A DNA stretch of 50,513 nucleotides from an uncultured Ruminococcus sp. GTDB lineage: Bacteria; Bacillota; Clostridia; Oscillospirales; CAG-272. The position numbers and the translations under genes were made by a program. Positions 18 to 50,160 of this stretch are shown here, one piece after another. The stretch covers positions 1-50,513 of the forward strand of contig CACYWW010000010.1 in the NCBI GenBank assembly GCA_902778145.1. Direction: 5' to 3'. Each line of letters begins with the position of its first letter. Position 1 is the first letter of the stretch. The notes beneath the pieces are model-generated. The model was not told the origin of the DNA. It did no database searches and worked only from the letters and a program-made list of their open reading frames with translations.

Positions 18-285
18 TTTTGGGCACCGCAAACCGGATGTAAGGCCGGCTTTCCGGCCGCGCCCCCTCAGATACTTCTGAGGGAGGGGTAAGAGGGGGT
101 CAGGGGGAGTTTTGAGGGGTGGGGCTCCCCCGGCATTGAAGTCGAAGAGCACGATCGGTCGAGGTGCAGACTTCATCAGCCTGCCCTGTTTCCCGTTGAT
201 CACCGATCACTTGAATTCGGAATTCAAACCTGCTTTGTCACGCTTCCCCGTTCTGAATTCATCATTCCGAACTCTTCATTCTCTC
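18..285 (+). repeat. Long intergenic element, copy 1 (hairpin, G4 motif, hairpin)
   Basis: Noncoding. It matches 44468-44728 almost throughout, and the first 80 or so bases are nearly identical. In order it holds a GGCCGG/CCGGCC hairpin (43-58) and hairpin A at 65-84 (CCCTCAGA/TCTGAGGG, loop TACT). A four-tract G motif follows at 82-107 (G3, G4, G5, G5 with loops A, TAAGA, TCA), then hairpin B at 103-131 (GGGGGAG/CTCCCCC). The tail is AT-richer and repeats GAATTC-like words. It fills most of the gap upstream of pgk. Structure formation is inferred, not shown. Confidence 0.75.
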
Positions 286-13628: not shown

Positions 13629-13830
13629 TTCTGAATTCATCATTCCGAAATCTGAATTCTCTGCCGCGCCCCCTCAACTACGGCTGAGGGAGGGGTAAGA
13701 GGGGGATAGGGGGGAAAACGGGATTTGCGCCGCCAAAGGGGTTCCCCGCCGCGAACTTGTGAGCGGTGGGGGTTCACGAGTGAGGGGTGGGGCTCCCCCG
13801 GCGTTGAGGCCGCAGGGCACGAACGACCGG
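13629..13830 (+). repeat. Intergenic element copy with hairpin A and G4 motif
   Basis: Hairpin A here has CCCTCA/TGAGGG arms (13673-13690), followed by G-tracts at 13688-13714 (G3, G4, G5, G6; loops A, TAAGA, ATA). A GGGGTTCCCC plus GCGAACTTGTGAGCGG module (13738-13775) is shared with 44397-44433 and, inverted, with 50388-50425. The hairpin B core CTCCCCC is at 13793-13799. It is downstream of the transglycosylase gene, in a 719-base gap (13503-14221) that holds no gene. Confidence 0.7.
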
Positions 13831-13903
13831 GGCAGAGTCTTTCGCCGGGTTCTCCGAACATATGCTTTCCATGAACCGACAGCCGGGTCAGGGGGTTCCC
13901 CCG

Positions 13904-13941
13904 CCCCCCCTTATCCACCCCCTTACCCCCGCCATCCCCCC
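13904..13941 (-). other. G-quadruplex motif on minus strand (four long C-tracts on plus)
   Basis: Four cytosine runs of 7, 5, 5 and 6 bases are separated by 7, 3 and 5 bases, giving a G4-capable minus strand. It does not belong to the element's own G-tracts, which are on the plus strand. Confidence 0.5.
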
Positions 13942-14012: not shown

Positions 14013-14070
14013 AAATGATGTTCGCCTCATCCACCACTTCGTGGTCCCCCTTCCCCAATCGGGGAAGGTT
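14013..14070 (+). repeat. TTCG hairpin module (shared with window end)
   Basis: Holds ACCAC-TTC-GTGGT and CCTTCCCC/GGGGAAGG hairpins in tandem. The same run recurs at 50227-50285, and its first part recurs at about 50349-50372. Noncoding. Confidence 0.7.
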
Positions 14071-14215
14071 TGCCGCGCCCCCTCAACTACGGCTGAGGGA
14101 GGGGTAAGAGGGGGATAGGGGGAGGTTGAGGGGTGGGACTCCCCCGGCGATGAGGCCGCAGAGCACGAAAAATCGAGGCGACAGACTTCCGTCTGCCGCC
14201 CCGTTTCGCGTTGAT
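14071..14215 (+). repeat. Intergenic element copy next to rnf operon end
   Basis: Hairpin A with CCCTCA/TGAGGG arms, G-tracts at 14097-14122 (loops A, TAAGA, ATA) and hairpin B (GGGGGAG at 14118-14124 with CTCCCCC downstream). It ends only a few bases from the stop of the Gx transporter gene, so the minus-strand rnf transcript would run into it. Confidence 0.7.
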
Positions 14216-30930: not shown

Positions 30931-31764
30931 ATGCCAGTATGTCCGAATTGCGGTTCGGTCTGTGAGGAAGGCAGTTCCTTCTGCACCGAATGCGGTACCA
31001 GGCTTGTAAAGCCGGAGCCCGCTGCGGCTCCCGTTCCCGAGCCCGAAGCTCCGAAGCCGGAGACCGTCGAAACACCCGAGCCTGTCGTTATACCCGCGCC
31101 CGGGGCATCCGTACCGGATCCCGCGGAAATACCGAAGCCGGAGATCGATGAAAAGATCGAGACCGTTATAAACGAGGCGGCGGATCAGACGTTCCGGCCC
31201 TCAGACGAACCGGTGAAGCCCGAGCAGCCCAAGTTTGAGCAGCCCAAGTTCGAGCAGCCCAAGTTCGAGCAGCCCAAGTTCGAGCAGCCCAAATTCGAGC
31301 AGCCCAAAGCCGAGCAGACTCAGCAGACGAACGGTCAGCAGTCGTGGCAGGAAAGATATCAGCAGCAGCGCCCGCAGTACGGCCAGCAGCAGTATCAGCA
31401 GTTTGATACGCCTCAGTACGCCCAGCCGACGTACCGGCCCGCGCAGGAACCCGAGGACGACGGTGCCGGCAAAGCGTCCGGCATAGTCAGCCTTATATTC
31501 GGTATACTCGGACTTCTCTGCTGCCTGTGTCCGCTCTTCTCGGTAGTGGGTCTTATCGCGGGTATCATTTCCGTATCGAAGAAACGCAGAGGCACGGCGA
31601 TCGCGGGTCTTATACTGTCGATCATCGCTCTCGTGCTGTTCGTCGTTTCGATCGTGCTCTCCGTGATATTCTTCAAAGACGCGCTCCTGTACTTGCAGGA
31701 AACGTGGCCCGATCTGTTCGACCGCTTAAAGGAAGCGGTCCCCGAGATCAACAAGTATCTCTGA
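30931..31764 (+). CDS. Zinc-ribbon, Pro/Gln-rich, DUF4190-like membrane protein
   Basis: A 277-residue protein with an N-terminal zinc ribbon (CPNCGSVC, CTECGTRL). A long Pro/Glu/Lys/Gln-rich linker follows and includes six copies of EQPKF-like pentapeptides. A DUF4190-like pair of membrane helices (around residues 185-245) ends it, with GKASGIVSLIFGILG and GTAIAGLILSIIALV. A cytosolic zinc ribbon and membrane anchoring are predicted. Function unknown. It is alone between a perfect promoter and a terminator. Confidence 0.85.
   Translation: MPVCPNCGSVCEEGSSFCTECGTRLVKPEPAAAPVPEPEAPKPETVETPEPVVIPAPGASVPDPAEIPKPEIDEKIETVINEAADQTFRPSDEPVKPEQPKFEQPKFEQPKFEQPKFEQPKFEQPKAEQTQQTNGQQSWQERYQQQRPQYGQQQYQQFDTPQYAQPTYRPAQEPEDDGAGKASGIVSLIFGILGLLCCLCPLFSVVGLIAGIISVSKKRRGTAIAGLILSIIALVLFVVSIVLSVIFFKDALLYLQETWPDLFDRLKEAVPEINKYL
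31222..31311 (+). repeat. In-frame 15-base tandem repeat (six copies)
   Basis: Six 15-base units encode E-Q-P-K-F (last unit E-Q-P-K-A). The middle copies are identical, and only silent T/C or A/G changes mark others. Copy number is likely to vary by slippage. Confidence 0.9.
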
Positions 31765-31802
31765 TAAGTCCGCGCGTCGCGTGACGCGTTCAAAACCGAA
31801 AC

Positions 31803-31834
31803 AAAACCGACTGACCCGTGTCAGCCGGTTTTTC
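31803..31834 (+). terminator. Terminator of zinc-ribbon gene
   Basis: AAAACCGACTGAC pairs with GTCAGCCGGTTTT with one mismatch around CCGT, then a T-rich stretch. Confidence 0.8.
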
Positions 31835-31884
31835 TTTGTTCTGACTGCGGAAAGCCCCGGATCGCTTCCGCCCGCGCAAGCTCC

Positions 31885-32135
31885 GCCGCGCCCCTCAACT
31901 CTCTCGGAGTTGAGGGAGGGGAAAGGGGGTTTGGGGGTTATGAGGGGTGGGCACCCCCAAGAACGTGAAAGCAGAAGAGCACAAACGGTCGAGGTGCGGA
32001 CTTCATCGGCAATACCCGTTGATCACCTATCACTGCGCACTTGAATTAAGAATTCAAAACTTCCGCTCCGCTCGGGATGACACCGCTTTGTATCGCCCTC
32101 TCATTCTGAATCCTTCATTCCGAATTCCGAATTTC
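31885..32135 (+). repeat. Intergenic element copy with covarying hairpin B
   Basis: Hairpin A is CCCTCAACTC/GAGTTGAGGG (31892-31916). G-tracts run 31914-31937 (G3, G4, G5, G5; loops A, AAA, TTT). Hairpin B is GGGGGT/ACCCCC (31933-31958) instead of GGGGGAG/CTCCCCC, a change kept on both arms. The tail repeats GAATTC-like words. It separates convergent genes, and the GH38 stop lies at its right edge. Confidence 0.75.
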
Positions 32136-34916
32136 TCAATGTATCACTACCGTCACCGTTCCGTTCGCGGGGACCGTGACCGTGAGCGTGTTCGCGTCGG
32201 GTCTGATCTCATGAAGCTTCTTTTCGTCGCTTCTGCAGAGATAAGCGCAAGCGATCGGGCGGCAGGCTGATATTTTCGCCTCGCGGTCCGCGCCGGTCGT
32301 ATCGAAAAGGCGCACGGCGATGCCCGCTCCGTCCTCGGACGGCTTTACCGCGGACACCTCCGCGCCGTCGACGGACAGAGCCGATCCCTTGAGCGGAAGG
32401 GCGCCCGGATGCTTCGTTGCCGAGAAGAACGCGATCGGATGGACGAAGGACGACGATACTTCCCTCTCCTTGCCGCGGCCGCTCACGGCGACGCCTATGC
32501 GGATGTCATGGATACCGCGTTCGGGATACGGATCGGGATCGTATGCGCTTCTGATCAGCGTCACGGAAAGCTCGCCGCCCGCCGATCTGTAACCGTATTT
32601 CGTATCGGTCAGAAGCACCAGGGACGCGCCGTTCTCCGTATCCTTCGAAACGTATGACAGCGCGGGGACCGCGTGCGCGGCGTCCTTCATGCGGAGCGTT
32701 CCGTACGGGATATCACGGACGAACGTGTCATCCGTAAACACGGCCGCCGGGACCGCGAACGCGAGCTGCGGCACCTTCCTGCCGTGTTCCGCCGGTTCGT
32801 TCCAGTCGATCCTTGCCGTAAATCCGAGTACGGGCGAGCCTTCCGTGAGCCTTACCGAGCAGTTTATGACGGACGATCCGAACCGGAGCTCATAGTTGAG
32901 CCGGCTGAATACGCCGTTTGACGAAAACGACGTGTAGCGTGCGCCGTATTTTCCGTTCAGGTCCTCCTCGAGCGTGTGCGGGCCCTCTCTCCAGCTCGTC
33001 ATGTGATAGACCGGGTTTTCCTCGACATACCTGAAATAACACGACGGCTCGCCGATCATCTCGGCTCCCGTCTTTTTATCTGTCAGCGAGATAAGGCGGC
33101 AGCTCTTCTTTTCGAACACCGCGCGGATCAGACCGTTTTCAAGCACGAACGGGTCGTCGTTTATATGTGAATCGACGTATTCATACACGCGCGGGCTGAT
33201 CTGCTTGTGTCCGTCGTGCTCTCTCTGCGACAGGACGAGCGTCGTATATCCGTACGGCTCAAGCTCCGCCTTTACGAGCAGAGCGGAATACCTGTGGCCC
33301 CAGTAGCCCTCGCCTTCTTTGATCACGGAAAACGGGATCTCCCTGCCCGCCGGATCCGTGATCCTCGCGTCGGCAAAGCCGGGGGTATAGTCCCACACCG
33401 TGACCTCGGTGAATTCATTTCTCGCGTAACCCGTCGGGTTGAAAAGCTGCAGCGCGCGCACGGGACCGTTCCCGCGCTCCGCGGCGGTGAAGTTATAGTG
33501 ATTTCCCTGCGCCTGCAGATATCCGGCGCCGCCGCCCTCCGATACGGTCTCACCGGGATCGCTGAACGGTATGGCGGTCGTATCCGTCGCCTCGGAGATC
33601 CGTCTTATGCTGAGCGTGGCGTATGTGTTGAGATCGGCCATGGCCTCCTGGAAGCGTCCCATTGCGAACTCGCGCGTCTCGACGGTCCCGGAGCCCGGCA
33701 GTATATCGTGAAAATGGTTGAAAAGCGTATTTCTCCACGCGCGGTCGAGTCTGTCCGGCTGTACGGGTGCCGACGTGAGCAGATGTGCGGCGGAGGAAAG
33801 CGCCTCCGTCTCGTTCAGCCTCGCCTCGGCTATACGGTTAGACATTTTGATGCGCGACTGCGTTATATAGCATCCGGTGAACAGGTAATTGCGCTCGGTA
33901 CGGTATACCGGGAAATCCCTGCCCGAGCCTTCAAGCGCGCCGAAAAACTCACGGAACGTGCCGAATCTCATCGTCGGGACGAGGGGCCAGGTCATATATT
34001 CCGTGATCCTCTCGATATCGCGTCTCGACGGCCCGCCGCCGTGGTCTCCCACGCCGAACACGCAAAGGTACGTGTCCACGCCCTCGTTCCGGCAGAAGCC
34101 CGGGACGAGCTCGAATTTGTGAGGCGTTATCTCTCCGTTGTACCATTCATATTCACGGTAGACGAGGACGCTTTTTCCGGACGGCGACTCATAGCGGTAT
34201 ACGCACGGTCCTTCATGTCCCCTGCAGTGATACATGTATTTCACGCCGGCGTCGGCGAGGATCAGCGGAACGTTCGCGTTGTGTCCGAACGTATCCGGGA
34301 CGAAATCGATGTCCAGCATCTCCGGGTCGATCTTCAGGATCCTCTGAAGATATTTGCGCGCCTGGAGGATCTGCCGCGTGAGCGACTCTCCGTCCGGCAT
34401 GTTCTTGTCCGGCTCGACCCATTCCGCGGCGGTCACCTCCCATCTGCCCTCGCGTATGCGTTCTTTGATGCGCGGCAAAAGCTCCGGGCAGAAACGGTCG
34501 ATTATCTCGTAAGTCGACGCCTGCGACTGTGCGAACGTCATCCCCGGGAAATCGTCCATCAGATCGAGCACCGTGCGGAACGTGTCCACGGTGACCGCCG
34601 CCGTCTCGTTGTAGCCCCACATCCAGTTCATGTCTATGTGAGCGTGCGATATGAAAAGCTCCGTGTATTTCTTCGCCGCGGGAGACAGATCGAGAAGCGA
34701 GTCCTCAACACGCTTCGCCGCTGACGCGGTCAGCGTTCCGTCCCGCTCTATGGCTGACAAAAGCGAATCAGCCGCCGCCTCTATACGCGCGTCATACGCG
34801 CCGTTTTCATTTGCGGACACGCCGTCAAGATACGTAAGCTCAGATATTATCCGCTCCGCGTACCCGCAGCTGCCCCTGTAAGCGTCAAGTTTTTTCAGTT
34901 TTTCAAGATACGTCAT
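32136..34916 (-). CDS. Alpha-mannosidase, GH38
   Basis: A 926-residue cytosolic enzyme (no signal peptide) that cleaves alpha-mannosides. Zinc-binding His93 and Asp95 lie in SHAHIDMNWMWG, the nucleophile Asp208 in FVPDTFGHN, and GVGDHGGGPS closes the active site. The middle and C-terminal beta domains are present, so the length is complete. It follows the second solute-binding lipoprotein by 46 bases and probably acts on the imported oligosaccharide. Mannose-rich glycans are the likely source. Confidence 0.94.
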   Translation of the reverse strand: MTYLEKLKKLDAYRGSCGYAERIISELTYLDGVSANENGAYDARIEAAADSLLSAIERDGTLTASAAKRVEDSLLDLSPAAKKYTELFISHAHIDMNWMWGYNETAAVTVDTFRTVLDLMDDFPGMTFAQSQASTYEIIDRFCPELLPRIKERIREGRWEVTAAEWVEPDKNMPDGESLTRQILQARKYLQRILKIDPEMLDIDFVPDTFGHNANVPLILADAGVKYMYHCRGHEGPCVYRYESPSGKSVLVYREYEWYNGEITPHKFELVPGFCRNEGVDTYLCVFGVGDHGGGPSRRDIERITEYMTWPLVPTMRFGTFREFFGALEGSGRDFPVYRTERNYLFTGCYITQSRIKMSNRIAEARLNETEALSSAAHLLTSAPVQPDRLDRAWRNTLFNHFHDILPGSGTVETREFAMGRFQEAMADLNTYATLSIRRISEATDTTAIPFSDPGETVSEGGGAGYLQAQGNHYNFTAAERGNGPVRALQLFNPTGYARNEFTEVTVWDYTPGFADARITDPAGREIPFSVIKEGEGYWGHRYSALLVKAELEPYGYTTLVLSQREHDGHKQISPRVYEYVDSHINDDPFVLENGLIRAVFEKKSCRLISLTDKKTGAEMIGEPSCYFRYVEENPVYHMTSWREGPHTLEEDLNGKYGARYTSFSSNGVFSRLNYELRFGSSVINCSVRLTEGSPVLGFTARIDWNEPAEHGRKVPQLAFAVPAAVFTDDTFVRDIPYGTLRMKDAAHAVPALSYVSKDTENGASLVLLTDTKYGYRSAGGELSVTLIRSAYDPDPYPERGIHDIRIGVAVSGRGKEREVSSSFVHPIAFFSATKHPGALPLKGSALSVDGAEVSAVKPSEDGAGIAVRLFDTTGADREAKISACRPIACAYLCRSDEKKLHEIRPDANTLTVTVPANGTVTVVIH

Positions 34917-34962: not shown

Positions 34963-36429
34963 TCAGCCCCTCTGCAGGCTCTTGTCGAACGCCTTGACTA
35001 TATTCTCTATCTTTCTCTTCGCCGATTTCTGGTACGACTTCATCGCGGACGATATGTCCTTCGAGCCTTTGGAGAGAAGGACCCGTACATATGATCCGAC
35101 TCCGTCGTACATATTAACGTAAGCCATGTCGAACACGCGGTTCCTGACGATATAATCTATCATCTCCGCGGAATCCGCGTCGCGCGTCACCTTGCGTTTC
35201 AGATAATTCTCCTTCAGTACGGGCGTTACGATCCTGTAAGCCTCGCTCGCTATGCCTTCGATAAGGATAGAGACGTATTCCCGGTCGCTCTCCTTTACCG
35301 TCGCCGGCACGCAGATCATGCTTGAGGCGCCGTTGACGAACGATTTGTATTCCGGCTGGCTCTTGTTCAGCTTCGGGACCGGGATAATACCGAATTCGTC
35401 ATTCATTTCGCGCATGCTTCCCGCAAGGTTGAGCATCGAATCGAGGAACATCGCCCTGCCGTCGGTGAACAGCTTGTACACGTTGTTGTAGTTCGCCATA
35501 TCCGTTGCGTAAAACGCCTTGTTCGTGATTATCACGTCGTACAGCTTGCCGTAGATCTCCGTATCGCGATCGAGCTGCGGATCATAGTACGGAACGTCGT
35601 CCTGATCCTTCGATACGAGCATGCCGCCCGCCGCGTAGTACAGACTGTACGGCACGTCGAGATGCCACGACGTCAGGCCGTATATGTCGGACGAGCCGTC
35701 CGGCGTGATCTTTCCGTCGCCGTCTGCGTCCTGAGTTATGCCTTTTGTATATTCTATCAGTTTATCGAGCGTCCATTCGCCTTTTTTCACAAGCTCGTAA
35801 GGATACTCAAGGTCGAGCCTGTCGAACATCGTCTTGTTGAAGTACATACACGACGTTATGCTGAAGCTGAACGGGCTTATATCTCCGTTAAGCATCATAA
35901 GATTGTTTCTTATGGAAAATCCGTTTTTGATCGATTTGTCCCACCAGGGCTTCGACAGATCGATGTACGGCAGTTTTTCAAAAGGCAGAACGTCGTTGTC
36001 CAGCGCGAGCTCGGCTCCGGACACCATATGGACGAAGCAGAGGTCGTATTCGTCGGCGCCTGATTTCACGCTGTTTTTTATCCTGTTGTTCACGTTGACG
36101 TATCCGTCCACGTTTATCTCGAATCTGACGTCGAAACGGTCCTCAACGTTTTTGTTGCGCTCGAACACGGCGTCATGTACCGGCTCGGCTATTTCGTGAT
36201 TCTCCGTGAAAAAGTCGGACTGACCGCCCTCCTGTAGCAGCACGCGGAACGTCCTGCCGCTGAATTTGCTGTTCGGAAGATCGTCCGGAACGGCGGTTTC
36301 ATCCGCTTCCGTGGCATTTGCGGTACCGTCTGCCGCCGTCGTCTCCTCTTCCTTTACGGCGCAGCCCTCCGCGAAGAGAGTCGCGAGCAGAAGAGCGAGA
36401 GCAATGACTGTGCACAATTTGTTTTTCAT
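34963..36429 (-). CDS. Extracellular sugar-binding lipoprotein, copy 1
   Basis: A 488-residue family-1-type ABC solute-binding protein with lipobox EGC near residue 23. It is a close paralogue of the product of the upstream gene at 36575, clearly alike over its full length by eye. The mature part holds YFNKTM, KKGEWTLDKL, a DADGDGKI calcium-type loop and IIPVPKL. The ATG at 36429 starts the signal peptide; an in-frame ATG at 36471 adds 14 residues. The next gene is GH38, suggesting an oligosaccharide ligand. No permease or ATPase is present. Confidence 0.9.
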   Translation of the reverse strand: MKNKLCTVIALALLLATLFAEGCAVKEEETTAADGTANATEADETAVPDDLPNSKFSGRTFRVLLQEGGQSDFFTENHEIAEPVHDAVFERNKNVEDRFDVRFEINVDGYVNVNNRIKNSVKSGADEYDLCFVHMVSGAELALDNDVLPFEKLPYIDLSKPWWDKSIKNGFSIRNNLMMLNGDISPFSFSITSCMYFNKTMFDRLDLEYPYELVKKGEWTLDKLIEYTKGITQDADGDGKITPDGSSDIYGLTSWHLDVPYSLYYAAGGMLVSKDQDDVPYYDPQLDRDTEIYGKLYDVIITNKAFYATDMANYNNVYKLFTDGRAMFLDSMLNLAGSMREMNDEFGIIPVPKLNKSQPEYKSFVNGASSMICVPATVKESDREYVSILIEGIASEAYRIVTPVLKENYLKRKVTRDADSAEMIDYIVRNRVFDMAYVNMYDGVGSYVRVLLSKGSKDISSAMKSYQKSAKRKIENIVKAFDKSLQRG

Positions 36430-36525
36430 ACGTTTTGTTATTCCTTTACAGCGAAAATATTGAGCCGACATGCGTCACGGAAGCCGGCAAATGAAGATTC
36501 CCGTGATAAATACGTTTATTTACCG

Positions 36526-36567
36526 AAAAAGGGAGCGCGGGCGTCTCCGCGTCCGTTCTCCCTTTTA
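36526..36567 (-). terminator. Terminator between the two binding-protein genes
   Basis: AAAGGGAG pairs with CTCCCTTT, with an inner CGCGG/CCGCG stem, followed by T5 on the minus strand. It should reduce read-through from the upstream copy, so the two are made at different levels. Confidence 0.75.
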
Positions 36568-36574
36568 CACTTCG

Positions 36575-38053
36575 TTATTTTGAAAGGCTCTTGTCGAACG
36601 CCTTCACTATGTTTTCGACCTTCTTCTTTGCGGACCTCTCATAGCTCTTGAGCTTGGAGGATATATCCTTCGAGCCCTTGGTGAGCAGATCGCGCACGTA
36701 GGAACCGACTCCGTCGTGCATGTTAACGTAAGCCATATCGAACACGCGGTTTCTGACTATGTAGTCTATCATGTCGGCGGAATCCGCGTCACGCGTCATC
36801 TTACGCTTCAGATACGTCTCCTTCAGCACGGGCGTTACAACGCGGTAAGCCTCGCTTGCAAGCGCCTCGATTATGATCGAAACGAATTCGCGGTTCGATT
36901 CCGGAACGGACGCGGGCACGCACACCATGCTCGATGCGCCGTTGACGAAAGATTTGTATTCCTGATCGGCCTTGAGCTTCGGGACCGGAAGGATACCGAA
37001 ATCGTCCTCCATGTCGCGCAGCTCTTCAGCCGTTGCGAGCTTCGCGTCAAGGAACATCGCGCGGCCGTCCGCGAACGTCTTTGCGACGTTGGGGAATTTC
37101 GCCGCGGTGCTGTCCGTCTCGTAATACGCGTTATTCGTGATTATCGCGTCGTAGATCTTCGCGTAGATCGCGGTGTCGCGCTCGAGCTGCGGATCATAGT
37201 ACGGGACGTCGTCCTGATCCTTGGATACGAGCATGCCGCCCGCGGCGTAGTAGAAGCTGTACGGAACATCGAGATACCACGACGACAGACCGAAGGTGTC
37301 CTTCGTGCTGTCGGACGAGATCTTGCCGTCGCCGTCACCGTCGGCGGTGAAGTCCTTAGTATACTCGATGAATTTGTCGAAGGTCCATTCACCGGATCTG
37401 ACGAGCTCGTACGGGAACTCAAGGTCAAGGCTCGTGAGGATCTTCTTGTTGAAGTACAGGCAGGACGTGATGCTGAAGCTGACGGGGCTTATATCGCCGT
37501 TCACCATCATAAGATTGTTCCTGATCGAGAAGCCGTTCCTTATATCCTTGTCCCACCAGGGCTTTTCAAGGTTCACATACGGCAAAAGCTCAAACGGGAG
37601 CACCTCGTTCGACTGTGCGAGCGACGCGCCGGAGACCATGTGCACGAAGCAAAGGTCATAGTCATTGGAGCCGGCCTTCACGGAACGGCTGATGGCGGCG
37701 TTGACGGCAGAATACTCGTTATACTCGACAATAAGATCGATGCCGAATCTATCGATAACGTTGTTGTTTCTGCGGAAGACCGCGTCATGCAGCGGGTCGC
37801 TCGTCTCGTGATCCTCTGTGTATACGTCCGTCTTCGACTGCTCCTGAAGAAGCACTCTGAATTCCCTTCCCTTGAAGGAAGTCTCGGGCAGATCGTCGGA
37901 GACCTCGGTCACGACCTCAGATTCGGGAGCGGTCGTTCCGTCGCCCGTGCCGTCGCCCGTCGTCGTCGCGGGATCCTTCTTTTCGGCGCATCCCGTAAAG
38001 AAGCAGGACGCGAGCATCAGGACCGCGAAAAACACAGCTAAATACTTTTTCAT
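36575..38053 (-). CDS. Extracellular sugar-binding lipoprotein, copy 2
   Basis: A 492-residue family-1-type solute-binding lipoprotein with signal peptide and lipobox TGC (about residue 22), then a Thr/Gly linker. The body matches copy 1 closely: YFNKKI, RSGEWTFDKF, a DGDGDGKI loop and ILPVPKL. Its own terminator follows, so high expression relative to copy 1 is expected. No transport partners are in the window. Confidence 0.9.
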   Translation of the reverse strand: MKKYLAVFFAVLMLASCFFTGCAEKKDPATTTGDGTGDGTTAPESEVVTEVSDDLPETSFKGREFRVLLQEQSKTDVYTEDHETSDPLHDAVFRRNNNVIDRFGIDLIVEYNEYSAVNAAISRSVKAGSNDYDLCFVHMVSGASLAQSNEVLPFELLPYVNLEKPWWDKDIRNGFSIRNNLMMVNGDISPVSFSITSCLYFNKKILTSLDLEFPYELVRSGEWTFDKFIEYTKDFTADGDGDGKISSDSTKDTFGLSSWYLDVPYSFYYAAGGMLVSKDQDDVPYYDPQLERDTAIYAKIYDAIITNNAYYETDSTAAKFPNVAKTFADGRAMFLDAKLATAEELRDMEDDFGILPVPKLKADQEYKSFVNGASSMVCVPASVPESNREFVSIIIEALASEAYRVVTPVLKETYLKRKMTRDADSADMIDYIVRNRVFDMAYVNMHDGVGSYVRDLLTKGSKDISSKLKSYERSAKKKVENIVKAFDKSLSK

Positions 38054-40693: not shown

Positions 40694-40985
40694 GAATTAT
40701 GAGTGCGTTGTCATCCCGAGCGCTGCGAATGAGCTCCTTCGATCAGCGCCGCTCACCGTCTGTGCCGCCGTAGGGCGGGGGCTTGCTCCCGCCGCGCGCG
40801 CCCCCTCAACTCTCTCCGGAGTTGAGGGAGGGGTAAGAGGGGGATAGGGGGAGTTTTGAGGGGTGGGGCTCCCCCGGCGTTTAAGCCGCAGAGTACGAAC
40901 GATCGGGGCAGATTCTTCATCAGCCATCCTCGTCGATTACTGCACGTTTATCACTTTGCGGTTGAATTCAGCCCGGCACACCCGG
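40689..40985 (+). repeat. Composite intergenic element downstream of spoIIE
   Basis: Starts with AT-rich GAATTA words and a TCATCCCGAGC segment. The GGCGGGGGC/GCTCCCGCC hairpin (40774-40793) is next, then hairpin A (40803-40828), G-tracts (40826-40851) and hairpin B (40847-40875). The tail to 40985 ends in a GAATTCAGCCCGGC word. The gap 40694-41022 between convergent genes holds nothing else. Confidence 0.75.
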
Positions 40986-41022
40986 GCCGTTGATTTAATC
41001 GGTCCGCCTTTCCGTTCACCTG

Positions 41023-44149: not shown

Positions 44150-44319
44150 TGAATTAAGAGTGATGGATCAAGAATGCGGAATGATAAGCGCCCCGTCATC
44201 CCGAGCATGGCGAAGGAGCTCCTTCGACCGCTGTCGAGTGTAATTGTATGACGGGGGCTTTTCAGTTATGAGCTATGATCGCCTGCGGGCAGTTATGGGC
44301 ACTCCGCGCGTTTTCGGCC
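44150..44319 (+). repeat. Palindromic intergenic module
   Basis: Runs from AT-rich GAATTA words through TCATCCCGAGC, the palindrome GAAGGAGCTCCTTC, and a CAGTTATGAG-type stretch with short hairpins (about 44262-44315). The same order recurs at 49939-50160, and its first part recurs at 40689-40750. Noncoding, between the esterase start and the next element copy. Confidence 0.65.
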
Positions 44320-44441
44320 GAGCCCCCTCAACTCTCTCCGGAGTTGAGGGAGGGGTAAGAGGGGGATAGGGGGGAAACGGGATTTGCGCCGCCAAAGGGG
44401 TTCCCCGCCGCGAACTTGTGAGCGGTGGGGGTTCCCGCCGT
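44320..44441 (+). repeat. Intergenic element copy (hairpin A, G4 motif, GTTCCCC module)
   Basis: Hairpin A CCCTCAACTC/GAGTTGAGGG ends at 44350. G-tracts run 44348-44374 (G3, G4, G5, G6), then the GGGGTTCCCC and GAACTTGTGAGC module (44397-44433), as at 13738-13775. Confidence 0.7.
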
Positions 44442-44467: not shown

Positions 44468-44728
44468 TTTGGGCACCGCAAACCGGATGTAAGGCCGGCT
44501 TTCCGGCCGCGCCCCCTCAGATACTTCTGAGGGAGGGGTAAGAGGGGGGGGTAGGGGGAGTTTGAGGGGTGGGGCTCCCCCGGCGTTGAGGTCGCAGAGC
44601 ACGAACGGTCGAGGTACGGACTTCTTCAGCCGGACCCGTTGATCACTGATCACTTGAATTCAGAATTCCGACCCGCTTTGTCCCGCTTTACTCATTCTGA
44701 ATTCATCATTCCGAATTCCGAATTTTCC
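44468..44728 (+). repeat. Long intergenic element, copy 2
   Basis: Full-length partner of 18-285. GGCCGG hairpin, hairpin A (44514-44533), G-tracts (44531-44558, with an 8-base third tract), hairpin B and an AT-rich tail. It abuts the DUF4340 stop (44729), so the minus-strand transcript enters it. Confidence 0.75.
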
Positions 44729-46582
44729 TCAGTTGTCCGCTCTCGGGTCGACCGCCTGATACGAAAGGAGCTTATCGGCGTCGGACACGAGCTTGCGTAT
44801 CATCGAACGCATCACGTAGAACTCACCGCTGTCGTTGACGGTCATGAAGCAGCGGCGCTCGGAATAAGAGTAGAATCTGTACGTTCTGACGGTGCCGTTT
44901 CTGAACGTCACCTCCATCGTCAGGAGCAGAGCCCTCTCATCCTCATGCGGTTCCTCCGTGAAATCTTCCCTGTTTATACTCAGTATCGTCTGATAGAACT
45001 TTCTGAAGTTGCGTATACCGCGGTTTTCTCCGACGTCCTTGTCGTCTCCTCTGAACGTCGTTCTTCCGTTCGCCGTTTCCGTGGCGACGAGGTCGTCGCC
45101 GGTGCCGGTGAGCGTGAAGTCGTAATGCTTGTCCTCCGCGTCGATCTTTATGCGCGAGACCTTGTCGATGTTCACGCTGAAGACCGGCTTGTCGAGATAA
45201 TCCATGAGCGACCAGTCGAGGAACGTGAGTGCGCTCGCCTCGACCCTCGCTATCGTATCGAAAACGTGCGACGCGACGTAGTAGTATTCGCCGCTGTCAT
45301 CGCGCTGTTTCGCGCTGACGGACACCATATTGTCGACGACTATACCGTCCGCGGCCTTGTATTTGTAGTAAATATCGAACGCGGGATCCGAAAGACCGTA
45401 CTTCTCGCCGATCCCGGGCTTCAGCACGTAATCGTGCTCCTGCTCCCCGTTCTCGTCAAGCACGGGGTCGCCGTTCTCGTCGACCGCGGGCACTATGTCG
45501 TAGATGCTGTACTCAAGCAGCTGCGAGCCGGACATGTTCACTATCTGTCCGAGAAGCGCCGTCATCTTTTCGGTCGACGCGTCGTATTCGACCGGCTTCG
45601 TCACTATATACGGGACCGTGACGCCGAAATTCTCGACGCCCGGCACGTTCGCCTGCTCGTCCTGATACTGGATCAGGGCAAAAAGCGAGCCGTCCTTGCC
45701 TATGATGATCTGTGAGATGTTAGTGAGATAAGAGTTGTCCTCTATCGGATACGTAAGGATAGGCGTCAGAAGCGACTTCACGTCGGCAAGCAGCGTCGTC
45801 TTTATCGACTGTTCAAGGATGTAAACTATATCGCGTCCCTCCACCATGCAGTAGTAATAATTCTCCGTAAGCGAAGGCTTTCCTATGAACACCTTGTAGG
45901 AACGGGTCTGTTCTCCCTCGACCGGGCGCGTGGTGATCACGAAATACGCCTTGTCGTCCTCCGGGGCGAGTCCGTATTCCGAAAGATCCGCGCGATCCTC
46001 TCCCGGTAAGAACCTGTCGGAAATGAGCGGGAAGCCCGCCGCGACGATGAGCTGAGAGAACAGTTCCTCGTTATACGGCGCTCCCTCGAGACCTTTGAAG
46101 CAGAATCTATCGGTCTCCGCGTTGTAATACGCCGTATATTCGCCGTATTCGTTGTGCACCTCAATCGACTGTATCTGCGAGCGTTCCAGATGCTCGAACA
46201 TCATGACCCTGCGGCTGCCGGACAGCACCTCGCCCTCGTACAGAACGGGCGGCTGCTCTACCTCTTTTTTGAACAGACCGGGCAGAAATATCGCGGCGAG
46301 CGCAACGGCGGCGACGATCACCGCCGAGACGATGATGATAGTCCTGACCTTCTTCGTCGTCTCGGTGACCGTCTTTTTCTCCGTTTTCGCCTCTTCCTTC
46401 CGTCCGAAGGTCTTCAGGCTCATGGCGGGCAGCTCTTCCTCGCTGCCGAGAGCGTCCCCGTACTCGGAGTATTCTCCGCCGTAGAGTATGCTGTGCAGCT
46501 CGGAATCGGAGTTTTCAGCCGTTATGTCCGTTTCCTTCGGCTCGGCGTCTCCGTTTTCCTGTTTTTCGTATATATCTTCCAT
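44729..46582 (-). CDS. DUF4340 membrane-anchored protein
   Basis: A 617-residue protein with an acidic cytoplasmic N-terminus (about 80 residues), one membrane helix (TIIIVSAVIVAAVALAAIFL) and a large extracytosolic DUF4340 region. DUF4340 proteins commonly follow GldG-like and ABC genes, as here. Function unknown; assembly of a cell-surface structure or secretion is proposed for the system. It starts one base after the GldG stop. Confidence 0.88.
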   Translation of the reverse strand: MEDIYEKQENGDAEPKETDITAENSDSELHSILYGGEYSEYGDALGSEEELPAMSLKTFGRKEEAKTEKKTVTETTKKVRTIIIVSAVIVAAVALAAIFLPGLFKKEVEQPPVLYEGEVLSGSRRVMMFEHLERSQIQSIEVHNEYGEYTAYYNAETDRFCFKGLEGAPYNEELFSQLIVAAGFPLISDRFLPGEDRADLSEYGLAPEDDKAYFVITTRPVEGEQTRSYKVFIGKPSLTENYYYCMVEGRDIVYILEQSIKTTLLADVKSLLTPILTYPIEDNSYLTNISQIIIGKDGSLFALIQYQDEQANVPGVENFGVTVPYIVTKPVEYDASTEKMTALLGQIVNMSGSQLLEYSIYDIVPAVDENGDPVLDENGEQEHDYVLKPGIGEKYGLSDPAFDIYYKYKAADGIVVDNMVSVSAKQRDDSGEYYYVASHVFDTIARVEASALTFLDWSLMDYLDKPVFSVNIDKVSRIKIDAEDKHYDFTLTGTGDDLVATETANGRTTFRGDDKDVGENRGIRNFRKFYQTILSINREDFTEEPHEDERALLLTMEVTFRNGTVRTYRFYSYSERRCFMTVNDSGEFYVMRSMIRKLVSDADKLLSYQAVDPRADN

Positions 46583-49938: not shown

Positions 49939-50160
49939 GAATTAAGAATGATGAATTCAGAATGCAGAATGATAAACGCCATGTCATTCCGAGCGCAGTG
50001 AATGGTCTCCTTCGGCATCATTGCACGCCGCCACGTGCCGCCGCGCTTCGCCGTAGGGCGGGGGCTTGCTCCCGCCGTTTTCAGTTATGAGTTATGAGTT
50101 ATGATCGCCTTCGGCGAGTTATGAGCGCTTCGCGCGTTTTCAGTCGAGCCCCAATAGGGG
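49939..50160 (+). repeat. Palindromic intergenic mosaic
   Basis: Repeats the module at 44150-44319. It adds the GGCGGGGGC/GCTCCCGCC hairpin (50057-50076), TCGCC-TTC-GGCGA (about 50104-50116) and GCGC-TTC-GCGC (about 50129-50139), spaced by GTTATGAG. The window's last gene starts at 49819, and from there to 50513 I see no gene. Confidence 0.65.

Follow-up and report, generated by a model that had tools for sequence, protein, structure and literature searches.

An intergenic repeat mosaic in a genus of rumen Clostridia that mostly keeps one orientation within a contig and may spread with the replication fork

In a 2.42-Mb, 84-contig MAG of a rumen Clostridia bacterium (the home genome, G000), many gaps between genes hold a repeated element. 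Along a given stretch of chromosome, its copies nearly always have one direction in common, however the genes beside them are oriented. This agreement suggests copying or insertion coupled to the replication fork. The repetition itself is not due to chance. We consider it an even proposition that the element forms the core of a BIME-like intergenic mosaic, specific to the genus, that spreads in a fork-polarized manner, with a REP-associated tyrosine transposase (RAYT) as the candidate agent. In a literature search of partial coverage, the texts, as excerpted, gave no account of near-complete replication polarity in an interspersed mosaic. Below, the window is the whole of contig C10 of G000, 50,513 nucleotides, and G011 is a sister species.

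The element and its distribution

A first-pass annotation of the window had listed seven intergenic copies, each with a hairpin (hairpin A) leading into a block of G-tracts and five with a second hairpin (hairpin B). Rescanning the window recovered all seven at the positions given, every one on the + strand, and in 7/7 copies hairpin A is followed by G3-A-G4-..-G5-..-G5 or longer tracts. The core positions were right, but the repeated unit reaches further than the limits first drawn; the copy at 40797, for instance, starts at about 40703 and includes a GTAG-REP.

Further copies outside the window, which the annotation had proposed to look for with a covariance model, were found by such a model. 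Model R1, built from 24 copies, gave at least 57 matches in G000 (150 of 663 candidates scored) and matched 12/12 genomes of the genus. With the 40797 copy as the query, BLAST found at least 54 places in G000 (40 of 55 candidates scored) and matches in 10 of the 11 other genus genomes. The same query matched 0/47 genomes outside the genus, and R1 matched 0/57 genomes of other genera in a family sample of 59, searched with stricter filters, in which both genus members were matched. There was no match to the element in phage and plasmid records at a distant-similarity setting, and no Rfam match in the window at the family gathering cut-offs. When G043, a closed genome from the same order, was sampled for similar repeats (20 stretches of 20 kb from 3.0 Mb), every 14-mer was limited to at most 4 of the 20 stretches.

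Composition of the mosaic

The copies in the window, with their parts and the genes that border them, are as follows.

18..285, + strand: copy 1; module m4, hairpin A, G-tracts, hairpin B, and tail, with the left side cut by the contig end
378-1562, + strand: phosphoglycerate-kinase-like gene; copy 1 lies upstream of it
13629..13848, + strand: copy 2; inserted m5-m6 (GGGGTTCCCCG..GGTGGGGG) parts hairpin A and the G-tracts from hairpin B
14015..14215, + strand: copy 3; m2, hairpin A, G-tracts, and hairpin B, in the same convergent gap as copy 2
31885..32135, + strand: copy 4; variant hairpin B, GGGGGT/ACCCCC
32136-34916, - strand: gene at the right border of copy 4; the heptamers begin no more than 2 nt from its stop codon
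40703..40985, + strand: copy 5 in full, with its upstream m10 and m11 modules
40770..40793, + strand: GTAG-REP (m11) of copy 5, just 5' of hairpin A
40799..40833, + strand: hairpin A of copy 5 (computed fold)
40826..40851, + strand: four G-tracts of copy 5, G3-A-G4-TAAGA-G5-ATA-G5
40847..40875, + strand: hairpin B of copy 5, whose left arm is the last G-tract (computed fold)
44188..44441, + strand: copy 6; m10, m1, hairpin A, G-tracts, inserted m5-m6, and the start of m7
44468..44728, + strand: copy 7; m4, hairpin A, G-tracts, hairpin B, and tail
44729-46582, - strand: gene at the right border of copy 7; the border begins 2-4 nt past its stop codon
49938..50513 (contig end), + strand: core-less composite; m13 reversed, m10, m11, m1, m10, m2, m10, m2, m6 reversed, and m3
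50053-50076, + strand: GTAG-REP (m11) of the core-less composite

The order of the modules is largely fixed, and the subsets of modules vary between copies. In the aligned copies, alternative 5' modules (m1, m2, m3, m4, m10, and m11) precede hairpin A and the G-tracts. After these come an optional insert (m5-m6-m7-m4, often with a second core), hairpin B, a tail (m8 and m9), and border repeats; in the copies at 13629 and 44320, the inserted modules follow the last G-tract. The joins between modules are sharp and fall at short GC-rich words in common.

The border repeats are 7-nt purine units (GAATTCGGAATGATGAATTC...). With genes called by a simple custom script, not a published gene finder, the heptamer motif was found at -21 to +30 of the stop codon in 26 of 45 element-facing gene 3' ends versus 5 of 317 other 3' ends, and in several cases the border repeat furnishes the stop codon itself. 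A search for terminal inverted repeats of the MITE kind found heptamer tracts resembling GAATTAAGAAT at the two borders, inverted relative to each other, although these are degenerate and of low complexity.

The window also holds repeats of other kinds: a 15-base tandem repeat at 31201-31320, within the open reading frame 30931-31764, and a tandem duplication at 34963-38053, made up of two adjoining genes of ∼1.5 kb with 79% similarity across two blocks of 300 bases.

Copies follow the contig and not the neighboring genes

The statement in the first-pass annotation that orientation is independent of the direction of neighboring genes was supported; orientation follows the contig. We compared neighboring loci at least 2 kb apart on the same contig in G000, G011, G010, and G008, in stretches mostly picked around copies and thus a nonrandom sample. 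At ≥30 bits, 36 of 38 pairs agreed; concordant and discordant pairs numbered 39 and 3 at ≥19 bits and 31 and 1 at ≥40 bits. The mixed contigs were G011:C62 and G010:C7 at ≥30 bits, joined by G000:C38 at ≥19 bits. Among the matches listed for G000, no contig with several BLAST places was mixed, and the covariance model gave one deviating weak match (24.9 bits, on C38). Within clusters there were three reverse matches, all weak (19.2-25.5 bits), and these are apparently module m12. On the 100-kb contig G011:C1, all copies among the matches listed are on the + strand.

The same polarity was found in G000 and G011 when no model of the element was used. Pairs of intergenic regions on one contig that have at least five 14-mers in common were direct or inverted in 39 and 4 cases, respectively, in G000 and in 27 and 3 cases in G011; the corresponding numbers were 5 and 5 in G010, 3 and 0 in G008, and 7 and 8 in G043. 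When 457 kb of contigs were turned by the element, the 759 14-mers with at least six copies occurred 7,393 times in the majority direction versus 169 times in the other, sums that are inflated somewhat by taking the majority for each word and to which many words of the core contribute. By module, m1, m3, m4, m5, m7, m8, m9, and m12 had no reverse copy, and the numbers with and against the element were 13/1 for m2, 22/5 for m10, 10/1 for m11, and 19/3 for m13; these counts are partly linked to the core and hence not independent. Module m6 was mixed (12 with, 11 against), its reversed copies lying mostly at set positions in the mosaic.

The annotation had placed the copies in gaps between transcription units, including convergent ones. 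They are indeed intergenic and do occupy convergent gaps, but across the genome tandem and divergent gaps are occupied too. Both neighboring genes were in view at 29 of 46 G000 loci: 16 were in tandem-leading, 7 in convergent, 3 in divergent, and 3 in tandem-lagging gaps. Ten of the 13 loci that were not tandem-leading share a contig with other loci, and all 10 follow that contig. The occupied fractions of such gaps in G000 were 16/75 tandem-leading, 7/22 convergent, 3/35 divergent, and 3/31 tandem-lagging; in G011, 5/15 convergent gaps were occupied. With these small numbers, there was no significant difference in occupancy between tandem-leading and tandem-lagging gaps (P = 0.18 in G000; 3/39 versus 2/27 in G011). 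The phosphoglycerate-kinase-like gene (proteins 98% identical) has the element upstream in both G000 and G011, in opposite orientations relative to the gene in the two genomes yet concordant with the contig in each.

At the G004 gap 3' of the orthologue of gene 32136-34916 (L083, G004:C209), core-like sequence was seen by eye in the opposite relation to the gene compared with G000; the covariance model gave no match to it at an E value of 0.01.

Polarity relative to replication

With the element itself excluded, GC skew on the element strand was negative at 41 of 46 G000 loci (P = 4e-8, for loci that are not independent), or in 23 of 26 contigs by a hand count of the same table. It was negative at 17/25 loci in G011, 5/9 in G010, and 4/6 in G008; the opposite sign was found at 5/46, 8/25, 4/9, and 2/6 loci of G000, G011, G010, and G008, respectively. 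In the G000 stretches examined, 203 kb of coding sequence runs against the element and 90 kb along it. At 4-fold sites, where the effect of gene direction is removed, the sign of the gene mean was the same in all four genomes, weakly (P = 0.089, 0.11, 0.036, and 0.66 for G000, G011, G010, and G008, respectively). From the skew at the 46 loci and the weak 4-fold-site result, we take the element strand in G000 to be probably the lagging strand, with fair, not full, confidence.

This assignment bears on one explanation of the polarity, the avoidance of G-quadruplexes (G4s): copies with their G-tracts on the lagging-strand template would be lost, leaving one orientation. The G-rich strand is on the probable lagging strand at 41/46 G000 loci, as avoidance would have it. 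However, modules without four G-tracts, some of them C-rich on the same strand, are equally polar (though partly linked to the core), and G4 heptamer repeats of Xanthomonas have no preference for leading or lagging strand (PMC4692102, as excerpted). We have largely rejected this explanation as very improbable.

Hairpins, G-tracts, and terminator-like sites

All four-tract G motifs on the + strand of the window (loops of 1-7 bases) fall inside the seven copies, and a predicted G-quadruplex motif (four tracts of at least three Gs with short loops) is present in 7/7. The only other four-tract motifs in the window are on the minus strand at ∼13898-13941, in module m12, and are the source of weak reverse model matches. 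In the five copies named by the annotation, the last G-tract doubles as the left arm of hairpin B, as it had described; the arms are GGGGGAG..CTCCCCC in four copies and, in the 31885 copy, GGGGGT..ACCCCC. For the 40797 copy, the computed DNA fold has hairpins A and B with the common G-tract (z = -2.57; z = -1.47 for the RNA fold). The annotation had further proposed that a folded G4 and hairpin B compete as in a structural switch. We find no support for such a switch as the central feature, since the G-tract block is one module of the mosaic and modules without four G-tracts are equally polar.

Compensatory change in hairpin A, another of its expectations, was supported. Arms from different genomes differ yet stay complementary (CTCAACT/AGTTGAG, ATCAACT/AGTTGAT, ATCAATT/AATTGAT, and CTCAATC/GATTGTG). 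Across 46 distinct arm pairs (both anchors were present in 118 of 131 copies, some clearly out of register), 0.680 of positions paired, more than in any of 2,000 shuffles of the right arm (mean, 0.577; maximum, 0.640). Because the copies are related, the result supports, but does not prove, covariation of hairpin A across the genus.

Terminator scans covered the seven window copies and a locus on another stretch (L010). In none of the seven copies was hairpin A or B terminator-like, and the numbers of sites in the seven scans were about those of shuffled sequence except at 31765-32135, where the sites lie outside the element. Copy 5 has a terminator-like site at 40971-40987. The tail of copy 3, which follows directly on a leading-strand gene, holds a strong one (14203-14174, minus strand) whose direction opposes that of the element, and the same strong hairpin recurs beside a gene in the tail of another composite (L010:374-403, + strand), again against the element. 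Of the functions that the annotation had offered, the best fit is to "replication-strand mark" and "mobile remnant"; in the window copies, terminator-like sites are absent from hairpins A and B but present in some tails.

Polarity may instead have been selected for a function: the composite would be a fork-polar or transcript-3'-end site, and misplaced copies would be lost so that orientation is kept. A leading-strand transcript through the element would be a C-rich, G-poor RNA (CCCCCUAUCCCCCUCUUACCCCUCCC) beside hairpins and could load Rho or protect 3' ends. Consistent with this are the heavier occupancy of convergent gaps in both species and the rarity of copies in divergent gaps of G000, the borders that abut stop codons, the covariation of hairpin A, and the two composite tails with a strong terminator-like site against the element; finding these tails raised the weight that we give to this explanation. 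It accounts less well for the divergent and tandem-lagging loci, which still follow the contig, for a polarity common to nearly all repeat words and not confined to one motif, for the absence of a misoriented class in G000 at ≥30 bits, and for terminator-like sites in roughly the numbers given by shuffling outside the stretch at 31765-32135. We regard selected function as a less favored, rather unlikely explanation.

Sites that are empty in the sister species

Four gaps of 532-629 bp in G000 that hold the element have syntenic counterparts of 41 to ∼140 bp in G011, with no element there.

Gap C74: 554 bp in G000 versus 123 bp in G011
Gap C19: 539 bp in G000 versus 46 bp in G011
Gap C31: 532 bp in G000 versus 41 bp in G011
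Gap C10@44320 (copies 6 and 7): 629 bp in G000 versus ∼140 bp in G011

The model search found no copy in the G011 stretch syntenic to C10@44320. In these four gaps, replacement of the spacer extends from close to the stop codon to close to the following Shine-Dalgarno sequence, and by eye the spacers of the four occupied and empty pairs are too diverged or replaced to define a target-site duplication or a clean junction. All four G000 copies follow their own contig, C74 holding one core locus only. Two other window copies were compared: at C10@31888 the contig of the G011 orthologue ends soon after the gene, with no element in the portion present, and for C10@40798 the nearest G011 copy is >7 kb off and its match is just 50% identical. 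Six sites are read as common to both species, with the same relation to the genes (C31@19010, C31@30344, C43@4380, C48@8172, C38@3789, and C7@17693). For the four gaps, loss in G011 in place of gain in G000 may be the explanation. Since the copies missing in the sister species are already oriented, and since G000 has no misoriented class at ≥30 bits, we infer that polarity would be set at the time of gain.

A RAYT gene that carries the REP of the mosaic

RAYTs are homologues of the HUH single-strand transposases. The Pfam Y1_Tnp profile gave weak matches in 5/12 genus genomes, two of them above the cut-off, and none in G000; that absence was a false negative. A genus alignment (A4), made from the five Y1_Tnp matches, all of which NCBIfam REP_Tyr_transpos recognized below its cut-off, found matches in 12/12 genomes, some of them just fragments. 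The G000 gene (C24:34784-35335; L126:1501-2031) has one full-length open frame of 182 amino acids, placed at C24:34784-35299, that scores 57.2 bits to NF047646, below the cut-off of 80. Its start overlaps the stop of a gene for a RarA-like AAA ATPase. G004 keeps the same junction sequence upstream of its RAYT gene, and at G010:C15 the gene before the RAYT gene looks like lexA.

Within the G000 RAYT gene is an in-frame inverted REP pair, both members of which are m11 over about 24-26 bases. The gene thus carries the mosaic's own REP, as expected of a cognate RAYT. Module m11 has the features of a REP; hairpin A lacks the GTAG tag in the aligned copies. There are 13 REP matches in G000, 2 in the RAYT gene and 11 outside, a low copy number for a REP. 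In the stretches examined, exact copies outside the RAYT gene are oriented with the element in 8/8 cases; by a looser BLAST search it is 10 of 11, with one reversed REP-like match. Module m11 thus occurs in a single orientation and does not alternate as REPs in BIMEs do.

Among 30 RAYT matches listed, we examined 16 longer genes (L124-L132, L136-L141, and L145), and by exact 12-mers 14 of them contain an in-frame inverted pair of their own GTAG-REP, of a type that differs from gene to gene. The pair in the G011 gene is visible by eye but imperfect, and none was detected in the G001 gene. REP insertions within tnpA_REP genes are on record, and an in-frame REP pair is described for TnpA subclass 2.4 (PMC6006769, in excerpt). 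In vitro, TnpA_REP cuts one strand of single-stranded REP DNA; its activity is on the REP strand, and the complementary strand is no substrate (PMC8266576, in excerpt). In G010:C7 (L060:12274-12647), a RAYT gene is broken at the expected second REP by an m6-like GGGGTTCCCCG..GGGGG hairpin.

As the agent of spread, RAYT is the part of our reading that we infer more weakly. Against it stand the 11 REP matches outside the RAYT gene compared with at least 57 core matches, most mosaics having no REP, and the absence of core copies from nine scanned loci, six of them RAYT loci (L119-L123 and L126, the last from G000, by model search). A reverse transcriptase was rejected as the agent because no link was found; the one such gene, with an Rfam RT-5 RNA at its start, is on another contig (L038:1192-2508, G000:C5). 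A search for Tn7 TnsA gave no match in 12 genomes, with the controls equally silent. A T-box leader was noted at L019:8763-9001 (- strand).

The mosaic could also have arisen with no transposase at all, if nascent strands at the fork switch from one repeat or short homology to another and copy modules, whose orientation relative to the fork is thereby preserved. Such template switching would suit the ordered mosaic with its sharp joins at short GC-rich common words, the polarity of nearly all repeat words, and the four gaps with replaced spacers. Yet the genome offers an enzyme, a RAYT with its matching REP, and so general a process should recur in other bacteria, whereas the BOX, RUP, and SPRITE repeats are only 60.8-63.3% leading (PMC3049150, in part). 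We think it unlikely that switching alone is the cause.

How the mosaic may spread

The reading that we favor, at about even confidence for the whole, is that the mosaic spreads by fork-polarized copying or insertion. RAYT would be the foremost candidate for moving the REP module, if not more, and nested insertion together with template switching between copies would build the mosaic. The hairpins would matter for spread as single-strand folds, not as a G4 switch. Insertions of IS200/IS605 and Tn7-TnsE elements offer a precedent in that their orientation follows replication (PMC5371812, in part). A broader version, tentative and in our view doubtful, has the whole interspersed-repeat population laid down by fork-coupled, strand-specific copying, with a RAYT encoded in overlap with a RarA-like replication-recombination ATPase.

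Several findings count against fork-polarized spread. The GTAG strand is on the probable lagging strand, whereas the IS608 rule would put it on the lagging-strand template. Repeats in common in G010 are unpolarized (five direct, five inverted) despite its RAYTs. There are exceptions in GC skew, a weak strand assignment from 4-fold sites, and mixed contigs, and neither a target-site duplication nor a clean junction could be defined.

The mode of spread of REPs and BIMEs is an open question in the field, and the sources that our literature search reached, as excerpted, hold little genome-wide strand evidence on it. Fork-coupled spread can be put to the test here, given the near-complete polarity, the empty syntenic gaps of a sister species, and the cognate RAYT that the home genome encodes. 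If the broader version is true, intergenic DNA records the direction of replication almost as strictly as a compass, and such polarity could help to orient MAG contigs. A caution also follows: G4 or terminator function should not be read from multicopy hairpins alone.

Relation to known systems

KOPS and other skewed segregation motifs are, like the element, polar relative to replication. KOPS are G-rich on the leading strand, whereas here the unit spans hundreds of bases and has its G-rich strand on the probable lagging strand; a KOPS-like role was set aside because of this strand.

The TM_ECO (PIT) element resembles ours in being intergenic and multicopy and in having a hairpin with a C-rich and a G-rich arm followed by one or more further G-rich arms. 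Its motif is a C-rich stem (9), a loop of 3-6, a G-rich stem (9), a loop of 3, and a second G-rich stem (9), forming a purine-motif triplex, and it has no strand bias (PMC4666352, in excerpt). By eye, the stem of hairpin A (CCCTCAACTC/GAGTTGAGGG) is mixed, with no homopurine/homopyrimidine duplex, and so lacks what a TM_ECO triplex calls for.

The pneumococcal BOX repeats are likewise modular and ordered, and BOX, RUP, and SPRITE are all overrepresented in convergent gaps; unlike our element, they mirror the coding bias, at 60.8, 60.9, and 63.3% leading, respectively (PMC3049150, in part). We claim no relation in sequence.

IS200/IS605 and Tn7-TnsE share with the mosaic an orientation that follows the direction of replication (PMC5371812, in part), but they are whole transposons, and here a noncoding mosaic has its GTAG strand on the template opposite to the IS608 rule. 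In Pseudomonas fluorescens SBW25, tandem REP arrays give a hint of polarity, with five in forward orientation near 2 Mb and six in reverse orientation near 4 Mb (PMC3116915, in excerpt); these are few tandem arrays and not dispersed mosaics.

Closest is the REP/BIME system with its RAYT: an intergenic mosaic of short palindromes with a GTAG-REP within it, a RAYT in the genome, and a REP pair in frame inside the RAYT gene, as in TnpA subclass 2.4 (PMC6006769, in excerpt). BIMEs, however, alternate the orientation of their REPs (PMC2817692, in part), whereas here the REP is a minority module in a single orientation, the core hairpin A has no GTAG tag, and polarity is nearly complete.
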